From a virus: DNA of 33,711 nt. Shown here piece after piece: positions 1,289 to 33,711 of this stretch. The translations under genes and the position numbers were made by a program. The notes beneath the pieces are model-generated. The model made no database searches and had not been told where the DNA came from. It saw only the letters and a list, made by a program, of their open reading frames with translations. Each line of letters opens with the position of its first letter. The stretch's first letter is position 1. The stretch spans positions 1-33,711 of the IMG/VR virus record IMGVR_UViG_3300044623_000215. One strand, 5' to 3'.

Positions 1289-2803
1289 TTATAGTGAATA
1301 GTATCTTGCTACAGGCTTTACTGGAACTGGCACTGTTGCACGATCATAAGAAAAGATTGCTGCTACGCAAGCGTCAATCTTCTTTTTGCTGTTTGCTTTT
1401 TGAATCATAAGTCCTCTTGATGAGGTCTTAGTCATAGAGTTTGCTACATGTCTATTTAATGCTTCGTGTCCAGAGTGTGTAAATGATCCATTCATGACTG
1501 CCTCATAAAATTTAGCAGTTGCAGGAACCATGCGTTCTGCAGTATTTGGATAAGACACTACTGGCATTCCTTCCTCATCAAACAACATAAATGTTCTTGA
1601 GTATCTTGCAGGATCAAAAACAATTTCTCTCATGCTATAGTCTGGATTTCTATAGGCATCAATAATTGTTTGTTCTACTTCTGCTACTGGAATCCACCAG
1701 TTTTGATCTGCATCATCTGGTCTTTCCCAAATTGCTAACACATCTAGGTGAGGTTTTTCTCCACCAAGGTACCAGGCAACTATAGCAGTTGAGTCTCCGT
1801 TAAAAGATCCATCAAACCCAAGTATAACATCTTCTTGTGGAATCTGCTCTCTGTTTTTCAAAGTTAATGCATCCCATGCGTCAGTAGGTATCCATGTCTG
1901 GGCACTGTCTGTCCATAGGTTAAGTCTTTTAGTTTTAAATTCAGCCTCTGGTGTCAATAGCGATGCAGACTTCATATCTTCCGCAGATAATATGTCGCCG
2001 TAAGAAGGATTTGCTAAACGCCAGTTATCTTCGTCCTTGTAATTGAGTTTTTCATCGCCCTGATACCACGCAAAAAAGAAGGAAGGATCTTCAACTTCTC
2101 CTTTTGCTAATTGTACGCCTCTTTGATACATCTGATAACACAGAGATTCTTTGCCTGATGAGTCATATTTCGTTCCAGCAGTGGTGATTGCCACAAGCAT
2201 TGGCTCTAAACGAGCACCCATAGACAGAGACATTGTGTCATACAACTCTCTATTTGGCTGTGAATGTAACTCGTCAAAGGCCACAAATGTGGAGTTTAAA
2301 CCTTCTTTTGTGAACGCTTCTGAGGAAAGGGCTCTGTATATTGTGCCTGTACCTGGATTATAAATAACATCTCTGAATGTTTGCAGTACCTCTGAGAGTT
2401 CTGGCTCTAGTTCAATCATTCGCTTTACCGTTTTAAAAATAATCTTAGCCTGATCTTTATCTGCAGCACAAGAATAAATCTGACCACCGTTTACGCCAAG
2501 CAATAACTGCTCTAGGACCAGAGTCGCTAAGAGTGCAGACTTGCCTGCTTTACGAGGAATCCCAATCAAAGCACGACGATGTTTTAGAAGGCCATTCTCA
2601 TCTTCTGCATATAAATTAATTAGCAGTTCTTTCTGCCAGGGACGCAGGACTAATTTATCTCCTACATTTCCTGCAATTGAATCCTCAGTAATACGACATA
2701 ATGTTTCAGCAAAATCTATAACATCATATCCACGACTATTAACTTTTTCAAGTGCGGAAATTGGAGAGAGGTATGTTGGAGGCCATGATTGTATTTTCTC
2801 CAT
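1289..2803 (-). CDS. terL: Large terminase subunit (ATPase and nuclease)
   Basis: 504 residues, a normal length for TerL. The packaging motor ATPase is at the N-terminus: Walker A-type GIPRKAGKS at about 81-89 and Walker B VAFDE at about 174-178. The C-terminal half carries the RNase H-fold nuclease, with acidic positions in ILGFDGSFNGDST, VFDPARYS and KKIDACVAAIFSYD. The protein translocates DNA into the prohead and cuts the concatemer, together with the small subunit and portal. The start (MEKIQSW) lies just after the stop of the S1-domain gene, so terS, the S1 gene and terL form one transcription unit fed by the promoter at 4194-4222. Confidence 0.95.
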   Translation of the reverse strand: MEKIQSWPPTYLSPISALEKVNSRGYDVIDFAETLCRITEDSIAGNVGDKLVLRPWQKELLINLYAEDENGLLKHRRALIGIPRKAGKSALLATLVLEQLLLGVNGGQIYSCAADKDQAKIIFKTVKRMIELEPELSEVLQTFRDVIYNPGTGTIYRALSSEAFTKEGLNSTFVAFDELHSQPNRELYDTMSLSMGARLEPMLVAITTAGTKYDSSGKESLCYQMYQRGVQLAKGEVEDPSFFFAWYQGDEKLNYKDEDNWRLANPSYGDILSAEDMKSASLLTPEAEFKTKRLNLWTDSAQTWIPTDAWDALTLKNREQIPQEDVILGFDGSFNGDSTAIVAWYLGGEKPHLDVLAIWERPDDADQNWWIPVAEVEQTIIDAYRNPDYSMREIVFDPARYSRTFMLFDEEGMPVVSYPNTAERMVPATAKFYEAVMNGSFTHSGHEALNRHVANSMTKTSSRGLMIQKANSKKKIDACVAAIFSYDRATVPVPVKPVARYYSL

Positions 2804-2805
2804 GC

Positions 2806-3606
2806 TTATCCCTTAAATGCTAACGAGAGCCTATCCTTGTCAAAATCAATATCTATGATTTCTACTTGTAAATCATGACCAATAGTAAATTGCTCAGGAG
2901 TCCATTTGCCCATTTTAGATTGATGGATTAAACCAGATACTAAGCCAAGAGAAACAAATACTCCAAAGTTAGTAATACCTGAAACCTTGCCAGTATGTAC
3001 TTGGCCTACTGCCAATTTACTAAACTGAATCTTCTTATCTTCCTTCTGATCAAACTCAACAAGTGCTTTTCGTGAGATGACGATATTGCCTTTTTCTCTA
3101 TCAAACTGAATAATCTTGGCATCTACAATTTGGCCAATATAGTTAGCCAAGTCCTCTGATTTATCAACATGGAATTGTGATGCTGGCAAAAATGCTCTTA
3201 GGCCAATATCAACTATCATGCCACCCTTGACAATTCTAGTGATTTCTCCAGAGACAATCTTATCATCTGAATTCCATATGGCCTCAACTGAGTTCCATAG
3301 AATCTCAACCTCTGCCTCTTTCATAGAGAGAACATATCCTTCGTCATCTAGGCCTATTACAGTAGCCTGTAGAACCTGGCCTATTGAGACGATATCTTCA
3401 ATATCAAATAGCCTCTTGGCAGATACTTCCTTCTTTGGAATATGGCCTTCGCTCTTACAGCCAATATCCAATAGGATTCCTTCACGATCAATTTGAACAA
3501 CTGTTCCTGTGACAATATCGCCAACAAAGTACTCCTTCATTGATTCGTCTATTGCTTTTAGGAAGTCTTCTAAACTGCCTATGTCGTTAATTGCTACTTG
3601 GTTCAT
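2806..3606 (-). CDS. Ribosomal protein S1-like protein, three S1 domains
   Basis: 266 residues with three S1 (OB-fold) RNA-binding domains at about 26-96, 114-181 and 198-266. The first reads VGDIVTGTVVQIDREGILLD, the second has VKGGMIVDIGLRAFLPAS, the third has ITNFGVFVSLGLVSGLIH. The leader GSLEDFLKAID resembles the N-terminus of actinobacterial RpsA, and the order and spacing match domains R1 to R3 of bacterial S1. Host S1 has four to six domains, so this is a shortened form keeping the ribosome-docking part and the first mRNA-binding domain. It overlaps the end of terS by 20 bases and abuts terL, so it is co-expressed with the packaging genes. Likely acquired from a host. It could direct ribosomes to phage mRNA or compete with host S1; both are inference. 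Confidence 0.9.
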   Translation of the reverse strand: MNQVAINDIGSLEDFLKAIDESMKEYFVGDIVTGTVVQIDREGILLDIGCKSEGHIPKKEVSAKRLFDIEDIVSIGQVLQATVIGLDDEGYVLSMKEAEVEILWNSVEAIWNSDDKIVSGEITRIVKGGMIVDIGLRAFLPASQFHVDKSEDLANYIGQIVDAKIIQFDREKGNIVISRKALVEFDQKEDKKIQFSKLAVGQVHTGKVSGITNFGVFVSLGLVSGLIHQSKMGKWTPEQFTIGHDLQVEIIDIDFDKDRLSLAFKG

Positions 3607-4105
3607 ATGTTGCCCCTTGGTTGTCTATGTCTTCTTCAAAAATTACTTTTGCACGATTCTGTCTTTTTTCTAACAATTTATCAATGGATGTTGCAACTCG
3701 TACTTCTGCAACTCCTAAACGAGATCTTGAAACTGGATCAAAGCCCAGTGAGGTCAATGCATCTGTGTATGCTCTGTTAATTGCTACATAAGCCTTAGCA
3801 TCAGCAGGCTCTGTTGAGACCATATATCTTTCTCTAGCAGCCTCATTAGCATCAGCCAAATGGGATGCATTTTTAATTGCCTCAATATCACTGACTGGAC
3901 TAAGCCAAGTTACAGCGATTCCCCAAGCACGATTCCATAAATCTAATCCAGATTGATTAAGATTTTCTGGTGGTGCTGGTATTTCTTTAGCCATAGGCAA
4001 ATGAGAAATCGTATTTAAATCAGGCAAAGGTCTTCCACCAGGGTTGCCCATTAGCCTTTTAATCTCATTAGGCTTAGGTGGCCTTCCCGCAATTGGTTGA
4101 GTCAT
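3587..4105 (-). CDS. terS: Small terminase subunit, P27 family
   Basis: 172 residues. The N-terminus AGRPPKPNEIKRLMGNPGGR is the hallmark of P27-type small terminases (Gly-Arg-Pro-Pro-Lys-Pro followed by a Gly-Asn-Pro-Gly element). The rest is helical and charged, as expected for the oligomerising core. It recognises the packaging site and recruits TerL. It is preceded by 200 bases without genes containing a sigma-70 type promoter (4194-4222), and upstream of that an HNH nuclease, an arrangement typical of cos-packaging phages. The ribosome site (AAGGA) is about 12 bases from ATG, a little long. The end overlaps the S1 gene. Confidence 0.9.
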   Translation of the reverse strand: MTQPIAGRPPKPNEIKRLMGNPGGRPLPDLNTISHLPMAKEIPAPPENLNQSGLDLWNRAWGIAVTWLSPVSDIEAIKNASHLADANEAARERYMVSTEPADAKAYVAINRAYTDALTSLGFDPVSRSRLGVAEVRVATSIDKLLEKRQNRAKVIFEEDIDNQGATYEPSSN

Positions 4106-4193: not shown

Positions 4194-4222
4194 ATTATAC
4201 AGAAGAGGGCAGCCAGGGTAAA
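4194..4222 (-). promoter_or_regulatory. Promoter of the terminase operon
   Basis: On the minus strand a perfect TATAAT (4199-4194) lies 17 bases after TTTACC (4222-4217), which matches the -35 consensus at four of six positions. It lies about 90 bases upstream of the small terminase start and is the only good promoter seen before terS, the S1 gene and terL. Confidence 0.7.
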
Positions 4223-7542: not shown

Positions 7543-8598
7543 TTATAATTGGTACCAGCCCTTGTCAAACTGATTAAGCAGTCTTCTAAAATATCTGTCA
7601 TATTGATATCTAATCATATCACTAGAGTATTTTGCATATGCATCTGTGGCTATTGCTCTATGATCAAGGTGCTTTACTTTTTCCGTTGCCGTCACAAATT
7701 CAGCAAATGAGTTACAACGATAGCCATTAAATCCGTTCTTAACTGTCTCAGTAAAAATGCCTAGATCTGTGGTTATAACGGGTGTTCCAACAGCCAAGGC
7801 CTCTAGATGTGAGTTGCATCCTGGTTCAAGGTATAAGGTAGGGCTGAAGGCTCCTAATGCACCTCCTAGCAGTGCTGCTCTGTCTTCTGCTTTAACATTT
7901 CCAATGTAAGTTCCATAGGCTGGACGATAATCTCCAGTACCACCAAGAATTAATTCAACTCCAAGATGCTCACAGACCTGAGATGCTATGTCAATTCCTT
8001 TACGCTGTGTTAAACGACCTAAATAGACATAGTAATCTTTTTTGTCCAATTGCATAGAAAACATCTTAGGATCAAAGTAAGGATTAATAACAGTATCCAT
8101 AAAGTTAATGTCTACTGATGCAGCATTGCGATGTTGAGCATAGACTGCTGATCTCCATGTATTGCTTTCAAATACCTTGTAATTACTAAATACACCAGAG
8201 TACCCAATACCGTACTCCACTGAAATATTTTCAGGGAATGCATCTGATACTGGCTTCTGAGCAAGACCTCCAATAATACAGATAAAGTCTTTTGGTTGTA
8301 TGCGTTTCTTTATTTCTCTGATTGCATTGCTGTTAAAAGTTACCCAATGTGGAAGAGTATTATCAAAGGATGTTGATGTAAAATGATTATTGCCAACAGC
8401 CTCTGCTCTTTCTCCTTCAGAAATACAGGTAATCAATTCTGTAGGATTAGATGTTGTTTCTTCACCAGCATACAAAAATACCTCATGGCCAATGCTAGTC
8501 ATCATTCTAACAAAACCATGGGTTTTAGCCGTATACGCACAGGAGAAGTAATCTTCAGTTACTTGCGTATGAGGCAATGCCAAAACATGAAATCTCAC
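7543..8598 (-). CDS. Glycosyltransferase, GT-B fold, family 4-like
   Basis: 351 residues. The start is GTG at 8598, forming a GTGA overlap with the upstream stop; an upstream TTG would lie inside that gene. The C-terminal Rossmann half has YYVYLGRLTQRKGIDIASQV, GTGDYRP and the donor-binding LEALAVGTPVITTDLGIF, typical of GT4 retaining glycosyltransferases using nucleotide sugars. The N-terminal half is less conserved and would bind the acceptor. In this phage the acceptor could be a fibre protein or the host surface. It sits in the early operon, away from the sugar dehydrogenase at 13568-14836, although the two could work together. The family call is firm; donor and acceptor are unknown. Confidence 0.85.
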   Translation of the reverse strand: MRFHVLALPHTQVTEDYFSCAYTAKTHGFVRMMTSIGHEVFLYAGEETTSNPTELITCISEGERAEAVGNNHFTSTSFDNTLPHWVTFNSNAIREIKKRIQPKDFICIIGGLAQKPVSDAFPENISVEYGIGYSGVFSNYKVFESNTWRSAVYAQHRNAASVDINFMDTVINPYFDPKMFSMQLDKKDYYVYLGRLTQRKGIDIASQVCEHLGVELILGGTGDYRPAYGTYIGNVKAEDRAALLGGALGAFSPTLYLEPGCNSHLEALAVGTPVITTDLGIFTETVKNGFNGYRCNSFAEFVTATEKVKHLDHRAIATDAYAKYSSDMIRYQYDRYFRRLLNQFDKGWYQL

Positions 8599-8747
8599 TT
8601 GCAGCAACCATCCTCACAGTCACAACTGTCACTCATGCTGTCAATAAGAAAATCTAATTGCTCAAGTGCATTGATCAAAGAAATCTTGATACCAATAAGT
8701 TCTTCAATCTCGTATTGATTATTATCTTGGTTTGTTGTTAGTTCCAT
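8595..8747 (-). CDS. 50-residue protein with Cys-rich tail
   Basis: The ORF from ATG 8747 begins MELTTNQDNNQYEIEELIGI, has a short amphipathic helix, and ends with a striking cysteine-rich tail (DSCDCEDGCCK). It overlaps the upstream gene by 26 bases and the downstream glycosyltransferase by GTGA, so it is embedded in the operon. The tail could bind metal. No family is recognised. Confidence 0.55.
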   Translation of the reverse strand: MELTTNQDNNQYEIEELIGIKISLINALEQLDFLIDSMSDSCDCEDGCCK

Positions 8748-12542: not shown

Positions 12543-13571
12543 TCATACATTTAGTTTTGACTCTTTCCAATCTCGTTCCCATGTTCCAACACTTAGTCGT
12601 GACCAACTATAGTGTCCACCTTGGGTGTTCTTGTTGTCAAAAACAGGGTTTTTAGAAGGATAGTATTTAAATCTATCGTCTCCGTTGTTATTCCTTAATT
12701 GGTAAATCATTGTGCTAAAAGTAGAAAATGGCGTTCCAACAAAGTCTTCTGCCATAGACATCACAAGAGCACTTATCAAAGCAACTGTCACTCTGTTTTG
12801 AAATCTAAGTTCTTTAAAATCCTTTAAAAATTCTCCAAGAATAATGTCTTCAAGAAGAATTAGTTTATTTTTATCTATTAAATTACTATTAAAGTCATCT
12901 ATGCTGCATAAAATTGGCAATGATTTGTTGTCAAATTGATCTAATCCTTGATTTAAGGCATCTTGAGTAAATTTATAATACTTATGATGATCTGGCATAA
13001 TTCTAATTTGTGTACCGTTAAAATTTTTATAATGCTTTGCTATTTTTTCTGCAATGTCGTAATATTCTTGTTTAAATCTAAATTTGCTTAAGTTAACATC
13101 TATATCTTTAGACCTGTCATAAAAAAATCTGCTATACCACATCAAGGTATTAGTCATTAAATTGTCACAATCTTCTTTAAACTCTACCTTTTTTCTTGTT
13201 CCTGCAAAATCTTTTTCGTTTATTGTATTTCCAGATACATTTAAATATGATTCATGAGTATTAATTAAATTTATTGATGACCTGTCTTTTAAGAAATAGT
13301 CGTTCTTATGTAGAGTGTAATTATCGTAATTAAAATCAACCAAATCAAAAATAGTAGGATTTTTTAAATTGTTTAAATGTTTATCTATTTTTTCTGTATT
13401 AACTTTGTTCCAACTTGCTGATTGAGGATCTTCTATATTTCTATGAGTTAGGTCCCATACAAGGTTAATGTTAGTATCTTTGAGGTGGCCAAGAAGTCCT
13501 GCAAATAATTGAAGACTAGAAAATTGATTTCCCAGACCATTTTGAGAATAACCAATATATGTTAAATTCAC
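12543..13571 (-). CDS. Fucosyltransferase-like glycosyltransferase (putative)
   Basis: 342 residues. It starts at GTG 13571 in a GTGA overlap with the dehydrogenase stop. The N-terminus YIGYSQNGLGNQFSSLQLFA resembles the GDP-binding 'GLGNQ' opening of fucosyltransferases. A mid segment (TQIRIMPDHHKYY) could hold the donor-binding Arg, and the C-terminal VGTPFSTFSTMIYQLRNNNG resembles the Ser-Phe-Ser motif of protein O-fucosyltransferases. It is unusually AT-rich compared with its neighbours, hinting at separate acquisition. A role in sugar transfer fits the adjacent UDP-sugar dehydrogenase. The assignment is by motifs only and could be wrong at family level. Confidence 0.5.
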   Translation of the reverse strand: MNLTYIGYSQNGLGNQFSSLQLFAGLLGHLKDTNINLVWDLTHRNIEDPQSASWNKVNTEKIDKHLNNLKNPTIFDLVDFNYDNYTLHKNDYFLKDRSSINLINTHESYLNVSGNTINEKDFAGTRKKVEFKEDCDNLMTNTLMWYSRFFYDRSKDIDVNLSKFRFKQEYYDIAEKIAKHYKNFNGTQIRIMPDHHKYYKFTQDALNQGLDQFDNKSLPILCSIDDFNSNLIDKNKLILLEDIILGEFLKDFKELRFQNRVTVALISALVMSMAEDFVGTPFSTFSTMIYQLRNNNGDDRFKYYPSKNPVFDNKNTQGGHYSWSRLSVGTWERDWKESKLNV

Positions 13572-14836
13572 TTAGGCCTTCCAATGCTCTTATTCCAAAC
13601 TTGATATTGCCAATGAATAGATTCTTGTTCATCTGCCCACGGATCAATAATCCAAGACTGTACTGGAAGAGATAAAGTTCTAAATACATCATGTGGAGTG
13701 GCAACAAAGAATATCTTTGGCCCATCACAAATAAGTTTTTCATTATTTTGTAGTGGATCAAAAGATCTAAACCTTACTCCTAATTCTTGTAGGTAATGCT
13801 GAAGAAGTATAGATGGACTTCCAGTTGTTATTCCAATATTTTTTTTATAGGAATTTCCTAATACAATAACTTCGTTTCCGCTTTCATCTTGTGCCTTTTT
13901 TAATATTTTTGCAAAATACATAGATTGTTGATCTCTTGCTTTTGCAATCATTTCAAATATATCAAAAGATAGGTCAATCTCTTTTGCTAACCAAGACATC
14001 GCTATCTGGTCTCTTGGGTGGCATCCACCACCATCACCCATTCCAGCCTTCATATATTTGTTAGATATGATTCTGTTTGTGGCTAATGACAATGTGTCTG
14101 TTACTTCATCAACATGGCCACCAATTTTTTCTGTTATCTCTGCCAAAGTATTTGCAAAAACAATCTTCATTCCAATAAATGTATTGTAGGCAACCTTGGT
14201 TAATTCTGCTGATTCTAATGTAATTTCTACAACAGGGCAAGACAAAAATGTTTTATATATTGATACTAGACGAGAAGAGTCTTCTGAGATCCTGCCAATC
14301 AGGACAAACTCAGGGTTTAAAAAGTCATGAATAGTTGTACCCATAGCAATAAAATATGGATTATAGAATATATTAACGCCATCTCTTATGGAAGTCAATA
14401 GTGGTAGGATCTGAGATCTTATTGTTCCTGGCAAAACTGTAGAGATAATTACTATGTCTAGGTTCTTATCTGTTTTCTTAGATAGGTAGTCATTTATTTT
14501 TACTACTACATCTTTTAAATAACTATAGTCAAAGTCTGCACGATCATCTGGAATAGGGCAGTTGCCCTCAAATCTTTCTAAATGTGGAGTAGGTACTGCA
14601 ACAAAAACAATATCTGAGTTATCTAAAACAGAATCTATAGAGTCTTTGATACTAAACTGTGCGTTTGCTAGATAGTCTTCTAACTCTTCTTCAATGTATG
14701 GAGTCTTTCTATCGTCAATGTACTTTTGTATATTAGGATTAACATCAAACCCGTAAACTGTTTTACCAGTTTTAACACTCATCGCTGCAGCACAAGGCAA
14801 GCCAAGTTTTCCTAAACCAATAAATCCTATGTTCAC
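13568..14836 (-). CDS. UDP-glucose/GDP-mannose 6-dehydrogenase family
   Basis: 422 residues from GTG 14836, which overlaps the upstream stop (GTGA) and has GGAG 5 bases before; the longer frame to 14896 lies in the upstream gene. An N-terminal Rossmann fold (NIGFIGLGKLGLPCAAAMS) binds NAD. The central domain has ELTKVAYNTFIGMKI with the catalytic Lys and Asn (about 214, 218), and GMGDGGGCHPRD holds the catalytic Cys at about 272 (Arg replaces the usual Lys after Pro). The C-terminal domain completes the substrate pocket. It oxidises a nucleotide sugar to the uronic acid in two NAD-dependent steps. All key residues are present, so it should be active; the sugar is not known. Confidence 0.88.
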   Translation of the reverse strand: MNIGFIGLGKLGLPCAAAMSVKTGKTVYGFDVNPNIQKYIDDRKTPYIEEELEDYLANAQFSIKDSIDSVLDNSDIVFVAVPTPHLERFEGNCPIPDDRADFDYSYLKDVVVKINDYLSKKTDKNLDIVIISTVLPGTIRSQILPLLTSIRDGVNIFYNPYFIAMGTTIHDFLNPEFVLIGRISEDSSRLVSIYKTFLSCPVVEITLESAELTKVAYNTFIGMKIVFANTLAEITEKIGGHVDEVTDTLSLATNRIISNKYMKAGMGDGGGCHPRDQIAMSWLAKEIDLSFDIFEMIAKARDQQSMYFAKILKKAQDESGNEVIVLGNSYKKNIGITTGSPSILLQHYLQELGVRFRSFDPLQNNEKLICDGPKIFFVATPHDVFRTLSLPVQSWIIDPWADEQESIHWQYQVWNKSIGRPK

Positions 14837-15387
14837 ATTCTCTCCTGCTGTGCCCATATTTCTTTTACATGGTCTGGACCTTTTGTAAAGTACCAATGCT
14901 CTGGTTCAACATAATGGAAGAAGACAACACCAATTTTGCCAGTATTGTTATAAAGAGTTTCTCTCCAATGTTCATATTCCTCACCCATAAACAAAATTGC
15001 TTCGTTTGGATTGGCTGTATATGCTTTACCATCTATGTATAACGCCCAAGGATCTCCTTGATAGAGAACTAAGTCAAGCGTATATGTGCAAGCATTTGCA
15101 TCTTTGTGCTTATGAAGACTAATAGTCTCATCAGAATATTCTGCAAATAATGAATAGGAAGGAAGCATTGTCTGGCTGCCAAAATAGTCTCTTACTTTTG
15201 GTAGTAACATTTCACTAAATTCTTTTAATATTGGTTCTGATTGGTCTCCCGCTAATTTTCTACCAAACTCATCAGTAGGTACAGATTTTAATCCCTCATG
15301 ATTTTTAAAATGCATACGAAGTCTATCAAAATCAGCAGGGCTTAAAACATTCTTAATTAAACCAACTTCTTTGTTTATGCCATCCAT
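14833..15387 (-). CDS. 2OG-Fe(II) oxygenase-like protein
   Basis: 184 residues. Iron ligands are suggested by H94-K-D96 (ISLHKHKDANACTYTLDL) and H140-W-R142 (GEEYEHWRETLYNN). The ending VEPEHWYFTKGPD is shared with the paralogue at 11814-12515. The fold is probably a beta-helix dioxygenase acting on a protein or cell-surface substrate. It overlaps the prolyl hydroxylase-like gene upstream and the sugar dehydrogenase downstream, so all three are co-translated. The substrate is unknown; the family call rests on the His-x-Asp...His pattern. Confidence 0.7.
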   Translation of the reverse strand: MDGINKEVGLIKNVLSPADFDRLRMHFKNHEGLKSVPTDEFGRKLAGDQSEPILKEFSEMLLPKVRDYFGSQTMLPSYSLFAEYSDETISLHKHKDANACTYTLDLVLYQGDPWALYIDGKAYTANPNEAILFMGEEYEHWRETLYNNTGKIGVVFFHYVEPEHWYFTKGPDHVKEIWAQQERM

Positions 15388-15941
15388 TGGACCACCACAT
15401 ATCTTAGTCCATCAGTAACTGGGTGCACCTGATGATTATAAATAAAGTTAGATGGAAAGATTAGAAGGTCATTCTTCTTAGCCTTAAACCTTAATCCATG
15501 TCTGTTAAACTCAACATCGCCACCCTCATACTCATCATTTAAGTAATAAGTCAGAGATATTCTGCGAGTAAAGAATGGATGGTCATCAATATGGTCGTGG
15601 AACTTTTGCTCTTTACCGTATCTCAGTAGTTGTGGGTTTTCAAACTTTTCTATCTTTGCGTAATATGCTGCCATATACTGATCTAAGCAAGGCTTCATTT
15701 GTTCATGAAACTTCTTTGTAAATTCATCAAGAACTGAGTTTCCTTCATCAGTGTGATGTGGAAGCATGATTAAGTCTGTATCTCTAGCCTTAGTATTTGT
15801 ACCAGACTGATGCTCTTCTTCGCTTACAAGTACTTCTGCTGCCCTCCAAGAAATGCCTGCTTCTTCTATCTTGGCAATATAGTCCATTGATTCAGGAAAT
15901 ATATTTTCAAATACTACTATTCCTGGTGCTAGTTCTTTCAT
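15375..15941 (-). CDS. Prolyl 4-hydroxylase-like 2OG-Fe(II) oxygenase
   Basis: 188 residues. The P4H signature is clear: H117-x-D119 in KFHDHIDDHPFFTRRISLTY, YYLNDEYEGGDVEF, the lysine-led KKNDLLIFPSNFIYNH with the distal His at 170, and the 2-oxoglutarate-binding Arg in DGLRYVVVQW (R180). Relatives occur in many marine and freshwater phages. It uses O2 and 2-oxoglutarate to hydroxylate, commonly on proline in proteins. The same genome encodes Pro-rich repeat proteins (16570-17088) and collagen-like fibres, which are obvious candidate substrates; that link is inference. All catalytic residues are present. Confidence 0.88.
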   Translation of the reverse strand: MKELAPGIVVFENIFPESMDYIAKIEEAGISWRAAEVLVSEEEHQSGTNTKARDTDLIMLPHHTDEGNSVLDEFTKKFHEQMKPCLDQYMAAYYAKIEKFENPQLLRYGKEQKFHDHIDDHPFFTRRISLTYYLNDEYEGGDVEFNRHGLRFKAKKNDLLIFPSNFIYNHQVHPVTDGLRYVVVQWMA

Positions 15942-16569: not shown

Positions 16570-17088
16570 TTATAAACAGGTGCAACCAGTTGATGGGCTT
16601 GTACCAAATGCACAGAGTCCAGATCCATAAGCATTATCACAAACATTACCTGCAATAGCGTATGCTTCTCCTTCAGTTGCTGTTGAGACAGACTGGCAGC
16701 CACCTAAGTTACCACAGCAACAGAAGTAATATGTTGTTGTTGGAACTACAGGAGGTGTTACTGGTGGAACCACAGGTGGAACCACTGGAGGAACAACAGG
16801 AGGTACCACTGGAGGAACAACAGGAGGTACCACAGGAGGAACAACAGGAGGTACCACAGGAGGAACTACAGGAGGTACAACTGGTGGTGTCACAGGTGGA
16901 GGTGTAACTGGAGGTACGACTGGAGGTACAACTGGAGGTACGACTGGTGGAACCACAGGTGGCACTACTGGTGGTACGACAGGAGGAACGACAGGAGGCA
17001 CTACTGGTGGGACCACAGGTGGAGGTGTTGGTGCAATAAATCTTAGTACTACACCTATACCACTTGGGTTACGAAATAACGGACTCAC
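16570..17088 (-). CDS. Pro-Pro-Val-Val repeat protein with Cys-rich tail
   Basis: 172 residues from GTG 17088 (AGGAGAATC before it). After a 20-residue head (MSPLFRNPSGIGVVLRFIAP) comes about 100 residues of tandem PPVV, interrupted by a few PPVT, then a C-terminal domain of about 50 residues with eight cysteines (YYFCCCGNLGGC ... GCTCL). The Pro-rich part should form a stiff polyproline II rod; the Cys-rich end may be a metal or disulphide cap. It follows the tail-tip gene and is three genes before a prolyl hydroxylase-like gene. Hydroxylation of the repeat is a tempting inference, as in plant hydroxyproline-rich proteins. Probably a tail tip or spike component. Confidence 0.75.
   Translation of the reverse strand: MSPLFRNPSGIGVVLRFIAPTPPPVVPPVVPPVVPPVVPPVVPPVVPPVVPPVVPPVVPPVTPPPVTPPVVPPVVPPVVPPVVPPVVPPVVPPVVPPVVPPVVPPVVPPVTPPVVPTTTYYFCCCGNLGGCQSVSTATEGEAYAIAGNVCDNAYGSGLCAFGTSPSTGCTCL
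16745..17030 (-). repeat. Short tandem repeat coding PPVV
   Basis: About 12-nt units (ggaggtaccaca/ggaggaacaaca type on the plus strand) repeated some 24 times. Such DNA is prone to change in copy number and thus rod length. Confidence 0.8.

Positions 17089-29729: not shown

Positions 29730-33711
<3,982 letters not shown>

Follow-up and report, generated by a model that had tools for sequence, protein, structure and literature searches.

A shortened homologue of actinobacterial ribosomal protein S1 is a fixed gene between the terminase genes of a phage clade

Ribosomal protein bS1 is the ribosome's mRNA-catching arm. One phage clade carries, as a fixed gene, a three-domain form of this protein, which is encoded between the genes for the small (TerS) and large (TerL) terminase subunits; it descends from actinobacterial RpsA, was acquired once and has kept its place. 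The conserved docking and RNA-binding residues of the phage protein suggest a role in redirecting the host ribosome while virus is being produced. The gene was analyzed in the virus record IMGVR_UViG_3300044623_000215 of IMG/VR, whose positions 1-33,711 form the whole stretch of DNA under study (33,711 bases, hereafter the window).

The window has a G+C content of ~36-42% and carries a siphovirus-type gene set with TerS, TerL, portal, S78 protease, HK97-type capsid and connector. As the S1 gene shares this contig with the viral hallmark genes for TerS, TerL, portal, protease and capsid, it belongs to a genuine viral genome, and the identical gene order in many independent contigs rules out contamination or misassembly. 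No tRNA genes were found in the window, hence there is no host pointer from tRNA, and a search for bS20 within the window was also negative. The host is probably an actinobacterium, judging from the ancestry of S1 and from the nearest isolate by TerL and portal, which is a Pontimonas phage. Both window edges carry a collagen-like repeat gene (1-779 and 29730-33711, minus strand); the two pieces fit one gene of ~1,585 amino acids and are consistent with a near-complete, circularly permuted genome broken in repeats. Another minus-strand reading frame (16570-17088) consists largely of VPPVVPP repeats, after which it ends in a cysteine-rich stretch (YYFCCCGNLGGC). The same strand encodes a glycosyltransferase (7543-8607), a member of the UDP-glucose/GDP-mannose dehydrogenase family (13568-14896) and a 2OG-Fe(II) oxygenase (15375-15941), which possibly act on surface sugars.

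The S1 gene (P0001) occupies 2806..3606 on the minus strand and encodes 266 amino acids from an ATG start. An earlier note on this DNA had placed an open reading frame exactly there and had proposed that its three S1 domains match actinobacterial RpsA, and profile searches bear this out. Three PF00575 (S1/OB) domains were detected (132 bits, E 9e-39), and the top curated model was the actinobacterial-type 30S protein S1 (NF005911, 253 bits), with residues 2-265 aligned to positions 9-277 of 486. Rival S1-family models scored lower (PNPase 58 bits, GSP13 67 bits), and these scores together with the colinearity with RpsA rule out S1 domains of the PNPase, RNase E or GSP13 type; the closeness to PNPase or RNase E that the earlier note had weighed against its own reading was thus not found. 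The phage protein is colinear with residues 9-277 of actinobacterial RpsA at ~45% identity (45-46% to the proteins of Microbacterium, Nonomuraea and Tsukamurella), and its closest solved structure is M. smegmatis bS1 (E 3e-73). It falls short of the curated NF005911 cut-off of 691 bits and terminates at the OB3 domain boundary, and is therefore a shortened homologue rather than an RpsA equivalog. The earlier note had also described the last domains of RpsA as missing. Nothing indeed follows R3, but the OB domains of M. smegmatis bS1 number four (PMC6133939), so that the phage protein lacks OB4 and the C-terminal tail only. In a library of predicted viral proteins, the nearest entries were longer S1 proteins (360-385 amino acids) from uncultured phages with 16-20% identity. 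The protein matched no PHROG family and gave hits to S1-domain families alone, with no similarity to TerS, TerL or other packaging proteins.

The N-terminal segment (residues 1-25, MNQVAINDIGSLEDFLKAIDESMKE; 3532..3606) was recognized by alignment and by an AlphaFold2 helix at residues 12-22. This helix matches the uS2-binding helix of bS1, with F15, I19 and D20 at the positions of F5, F9 and E10 in the E. coli protein. It is followed on the minus strand by OB1 (R1; 3322..3531; PF00575, 50.6 bits), where D47 and K51 correspond to D39 and K43 in the uS2 pocket of E. coli S1, and by OB2 (R2; 3067..3264; PF00575, 54.6 bits), where K127 and F139 correspond to K117 and F130. The last domain, OB3 (R3; 2818..3018; PF00575, 43.4 bits), has an RNA-binding face of F214, F217, H228, D254 and R259, assigned by the residues that generally serve this purpose in S1 folds of the PNPase type. 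An OB3 loop (window ~2892-2905, minus strand) lacks four residues, WKHI in the host protein, before the HPSE/TPEQ segment in all phage S1 sequences of the alignments shown, and this deletion near the RNA-binding face is, on these alignments, a mark of the phage S1 clade. The AlphaFold2 model of the protein has a mean pLDDT of 83 and a pTM of 0.55, at which its domain arrangement is unreliable; its best matches are ribosome-bound bS1 structures (9gux_B over 264 columns; 8wi7_b with 44% identity).

Residue conservation was surveyed in 74 phage S1 sequences (the window and 73 distinct sampled relatives) using E. coli contact residues taken from PMC10123108, where K117 and F130 sit near the Shine-Dalgarno part of the mRNA. 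The equivalents of the uS2 anchor (F15, D47 and K51) and the OB2 residues K127 and F139 are identical in 74/74 sequences, as are F217, H228, D254 and R259 of OB3, with position 214 occupied by F or Y. Overall, a conservation of 97% is reached by only 51 of the 266 columns. At the E. coli contacts F9, F79 and F120, where actinobacteria differ, the phage proteins mostly have the host-type residues I, E and M/L (I at the F9 position in 73/74, E at the F79 position in 71/74), and I19 and D20 of the window protein are as in actinobacteria. The conservation may partly be due to fold and structure. Nevertheless, the invariant uS2-anchor, OB2 and OB3 residues favour, as far as sequence can tell, a ribosomal role over a packaging role.

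The first scan of IMG/VR yielded 36 relatives with S1 directly before TerL in each, and with TerS preceding S1 wherever the contig extends that far. Sampling was extended by further scans with TerL and with alignments; the relatives listed are a lower bound, and all data for the S1-bearing clade come from metagenomic contigs. S1 lies between TerS and TerL in every sampled relative whose contig shows the junction, as far as ~73% TerL identity to the window, and 11 S1-bearing records contain exactly three S1 domains each in a single gene. The closest relatives without the gene (L304-L342) have TerL proteins with 58-67% identity to that of L103, and their TerS gene directly abuts TerL, in most cases overlapping it; for a few contigs the S1-less call is based on at least 300 bases upstream of TerL. 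No S1 domain was detected anywhere in 22 S1-less records (up to 37 kb, some possibly incomplete). The cultured relative, Pontimonas phage phiPsal1 (TerL 45%, portal 39%), is also S1-less. Absence from near relatives, which the earlier note had named as evidence against its proposal, is thereby ruled out, as S1 is missing only beyond ~67% TerL identity and the survey of terminase neighbourhoods finds it throughout the sampled near relatives. Most rpsA matches in the phage collection represent bacterial contamination; several phage-named records with an ordinary bacterial rpsA look like host contamination (L350, with L348 compared), among them Acinetobacter phage MD-2021a with its cmk-rpsA pair.

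On a TerL tree built by a quick method from 128 rows (44 with S1 and 84 without), the presence of S1 requires a single state change (branch SH-aLRT 100), and no loss is seen. The tree of the domains against RpsA that the earlier note had proposed, with 52 sequences spanning OB1-OB3, unites the 38 phage proteins in one clade (100/100), which joins the four actinobacterial RpsA (100/96). The stem of the phage clade is long (1.02 changes per site), and the four RpsA are the only actinobacterial ones in the tree, low-GC freshwater lineages not being represented; a search of genome contigs for host RpsA returned one unrelated alphaproteobacterial locus. Taken together, the two trees indicate one capture of an actinobacterial rpsA by the ancestor of the clade with vertical descent since. 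The TerL tree itself is unrooted, and gain rather than loss follows from the lack of S1 in the wider phages and from the cellular origin of the gene.

The phage S1 is under purifying selection. Nei-Gojobori dN/dS values over 381 pairs, which are approximate with synonymous sites near saturation in many pairs, were 0.18 for S1, 0.14 for TerS and 0.07 for TerL, and 0.18, 0.14 and 0.16 for OB1, OB2 and OB3, respectively. The protein has 258-271 amino acids in all 73 distinct relatives, so that the three-domain form is fixed. A truncated host gene is what accidental capture would give, and the gene might be a functionless fragment caught in recombination and carried passively. The chance of this is negligible, since no loss is seen in a clade in which the divergence of S1 reaches one half, the three-domain ends are precise and dN/dS is low; the TerL tree, dN/dS and residue conservation refute it in practice.

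The S1 gene is tightly inserted in its neighbourhood. The minus-strand order is TerS (3587..4105; phrog_83, E 5e-11), S1 and TerL (1289..2803; PF03354, PF20441 and phrog_9), in agreement with the position between the two terminase genes given in the earlier note, and this order is found in all sampled near relatives. TerS and S1 overlap by 20 bp in the window and in 62 of 74 relatives, and TerL begins 2 bp past the S1 stop codon. The sole exception seen to the tight TerS-S1 junction is L286, where an open reading frame of ~256 amino acids (600-1373) resembling a SAM-dependent methyltransferase lies between TerS and S1. At least 13 contigs start at a homologous base ~100 bp upstream of TerS (at the base homologous to 4207: L004, L006, L007, L030, L034, L064, L065, L066, L071, L073 and L083), and in contigs spanning the site the conserved sequence CCTGGCTGCC immediately precedes that base. 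Position 4207 (minus strand) thus probably marks the left physical terminus (cos) of a linear genome; with the end at 4207..4208, this genome would open with the three genes TerS, S1 and TerL. Upstream of these genes lies a promoter-like site, TTTACC-17-TATAAT (4194..4222, minus strand; 10/12 matches), which is conserved in the subclade of the window and absent from a more distant S1-bearing subclade, while promoter-like sites in the region show no excess over shuffles. The site straddles the probable cos end, and a promoter there would be complete only once the ends are joined.

This end lies close to TerS, all sampled members have S1 between the two terminase genes, and S1 is inherited together with TerL, which could point to a packaging factor: S1 might be a third terminase component or might assist TerS, TerL or cos recognition in an RNA-dependent way. 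We consider this very doubtful: in near relatives (TerL 58-67%) TerS and TerL do their work with no S1, the conserved residues are those of ribosome docking and RNA binding, a foreign gene separates TerS from S1 in L286, and the shared position is also predicted by late co-expression. A more specific version, in which S1 would be a third, RNA-binding terminase component that couples cos recognition and the packaging of DNA to ribosomes or late mRNA, would explain the unbroken placement between TerS and TerL and is most improbable.

We favour, at slightly better than even chances, the view that the protein is an S1 surrogate, which would be made late, dock on the ribosome at the uS2 site and give phage mRNAs an advantage. 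According to this model, the captured and shortened actinobacterial rpsA would act as a phage-owned bS1. Its position within the terminase operon, closely joined to the neighbouring gene on either side, predicts expression with the late genes, for which the late-expressed bS21 of a phage TerL/capsid module offers a precedent (PMC9723584), and the protein would be translated from this operon, probably late in infection. Docking onto uS2, where mRNA leaves the host 30S subunit, would fall to the N-terminal helix and OB1; OB2 would lie beside the Shine-Dalgarno helix, and OB3 would be the only flexible RNA-binding arm. With its site filled by the phage protein, the four-domain host bS1 would be displaced or substituted, and the resulting ribosomes would initiate preferentially on late phage mRNAs at the cost of host mRNAs needing full-length S1. 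In bS1, OB1-OB2 dock, OB2 touches the Shine-Dalgarno helix and the domains from OB3 onward hold the mRNA (PMC10123108). As OB1-OB3 have been kept precisely, the phage protein should dock and still hold RNA. Several points count against the surrogate model: the rate of evolution is higher in S1 than in TerL, the S1 proteins of L103 and L260 have lost their N-terminal INDIG motif, part of the residue conservation may come from the fold, the predicted domain arrangement is unreliable, and translation in this phage does not look specialized for S1 only. Shine-Dalgarno strength averages -4.4 kcal/mol in phage genes versus -1.8 in the background of all ATG codons (-5.3 in phiPsal1), and the shift off Shine-Dalgarno sites reported for huge phages with rpS1 was not seen. 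Since these sites are still used, the model implies that initiation is biased, and not that it comes to depend on S1 only.

When OB1 or OB1-2 is overproduced in E. coli, the fragment attaches to uS2 and drives native S1 off; bulk translation then halts, but leaderless mRNA is still translated (PMC3296737). The phage protein could act in exactly this way as a dominant-negative shut-off factor, with OB1 docking blocking host bS1 and stopping host translation without aid to phage mRNAs, which would escape via strong Shine-Dalgarno sites or leaderless starts; phage genes do possess Shine-Dalgarno sites. Such a shut-off is unlikely, as OB1 alone would suffice, yet OB2 and OB3 including its RNA face are kept in 74/74 sequences with dN/dS as low as in OB1, and a gene located in the terminase operon is more likely to be expressed late than early. 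The invariance of the OB3 residues would equally suit RNA binding off the ribosome, a property we infer from sequence for the phage protein, by which S1 could coat and protect late phage mRNA, act at RNA polymerase or tmRNA, or regulate its own operon by binding the TerS-S1-TerL mRNA and balancing the terminase subunits. Roles of this kind are known for host bS1, according to the introduction of PMC10123108, and the gene sits within the coupled TerS-TerL junction. This reading leaves the strict conservation of the uS2 anchor (F15, D47 and K51) unexplained, and we regard it as rather unlikely. The surrogate reading gains interest from the phylogenetic setting: a minimal three-domain bS1 is fixed in a clade of ~34-kb phages, and the clean contrast between clades with and without it makes testable whether a phage specializes host ribosomes through a one-protein swap. 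The natural OB1-OB3 form also offers a route to what OB4 and the tail contribute in actinobacteria.

A viral rpsA was noticed in 2013 viromes and could not be placed (PMC3877843), and a survey of freshwater phages reported S21 and L12 as the only ribosomal proteins. Cellular ribosomal-protein genes under purifying selection, with cellular origin as for the phage S1, were described in phages by Mizuno et al. 2019, and incorporation into host ribosomes was shown for phage bS21 and bL12 (PMC6375957). However, this main survey of viral ribosomal proteins omitted bS1, excluding the S1 domain for its functional ambiguity, so the three-domain family was not assessed there; in the open-access papers searched, we found no report of this family. 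Thus, phage bS1 genes are already known, mostly from huge phages, and what is new is a minimal bS1, present in small and presumably actinobacterial phages and fixed in the terminase operon.

Compared with actinobacterial bS1 (M. smegmatis, 8wi7), the phage protein shares the colinear N-terminal segment, OB1-OB3 and the anchor and RNA-binding residues, but differs in the absence of OB4 and the tail, the OB3 loop deletion, the long stem branch and its encoding in the terminase operon. Other phage-encoded bS1 homologues with a proposed role in translation are those of the jumbo cyanophage PhiMa05 (GenBank MaAM05; PMC13157829) and the rpS1-like proteins of huge phages (PMC7162821). These belong to genomes above 200 kb with other phylogenetic affinity, and that of PhiMa05 adjoins bL21 and bL27, whereas here, in genomes of ~34 kb, a whole clade has a protein of three domains only as a fixed part of its terminase operon. 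N-terminal pieces of S1 that bind uS2 or serve a virus are also represented by the E. coli fragments S1-106 and S1-194 (PMC3296737) and the S1 half in Q-beta replicase (4q7j); the former are laboratory fragments and the latter is a recruited host protein, whereas here the virus itself encodes the shortened form. The earlier note had called the coupling of S1 to packaging genes unusual, which holds for bS1 but has a precedent in the bS21 of freshwater Bacteroidetes phages, located in the TerL/capsid module and shown to be expressed late (PMC9723584). Both are genes for ribosomal proteins of translation initiation kept near TerL and capsid genes; bS21 is a different ribosomal protein with other hosts and is encoded on the strand opposite the structural genes, whereas the S1 described here is known from sequence.
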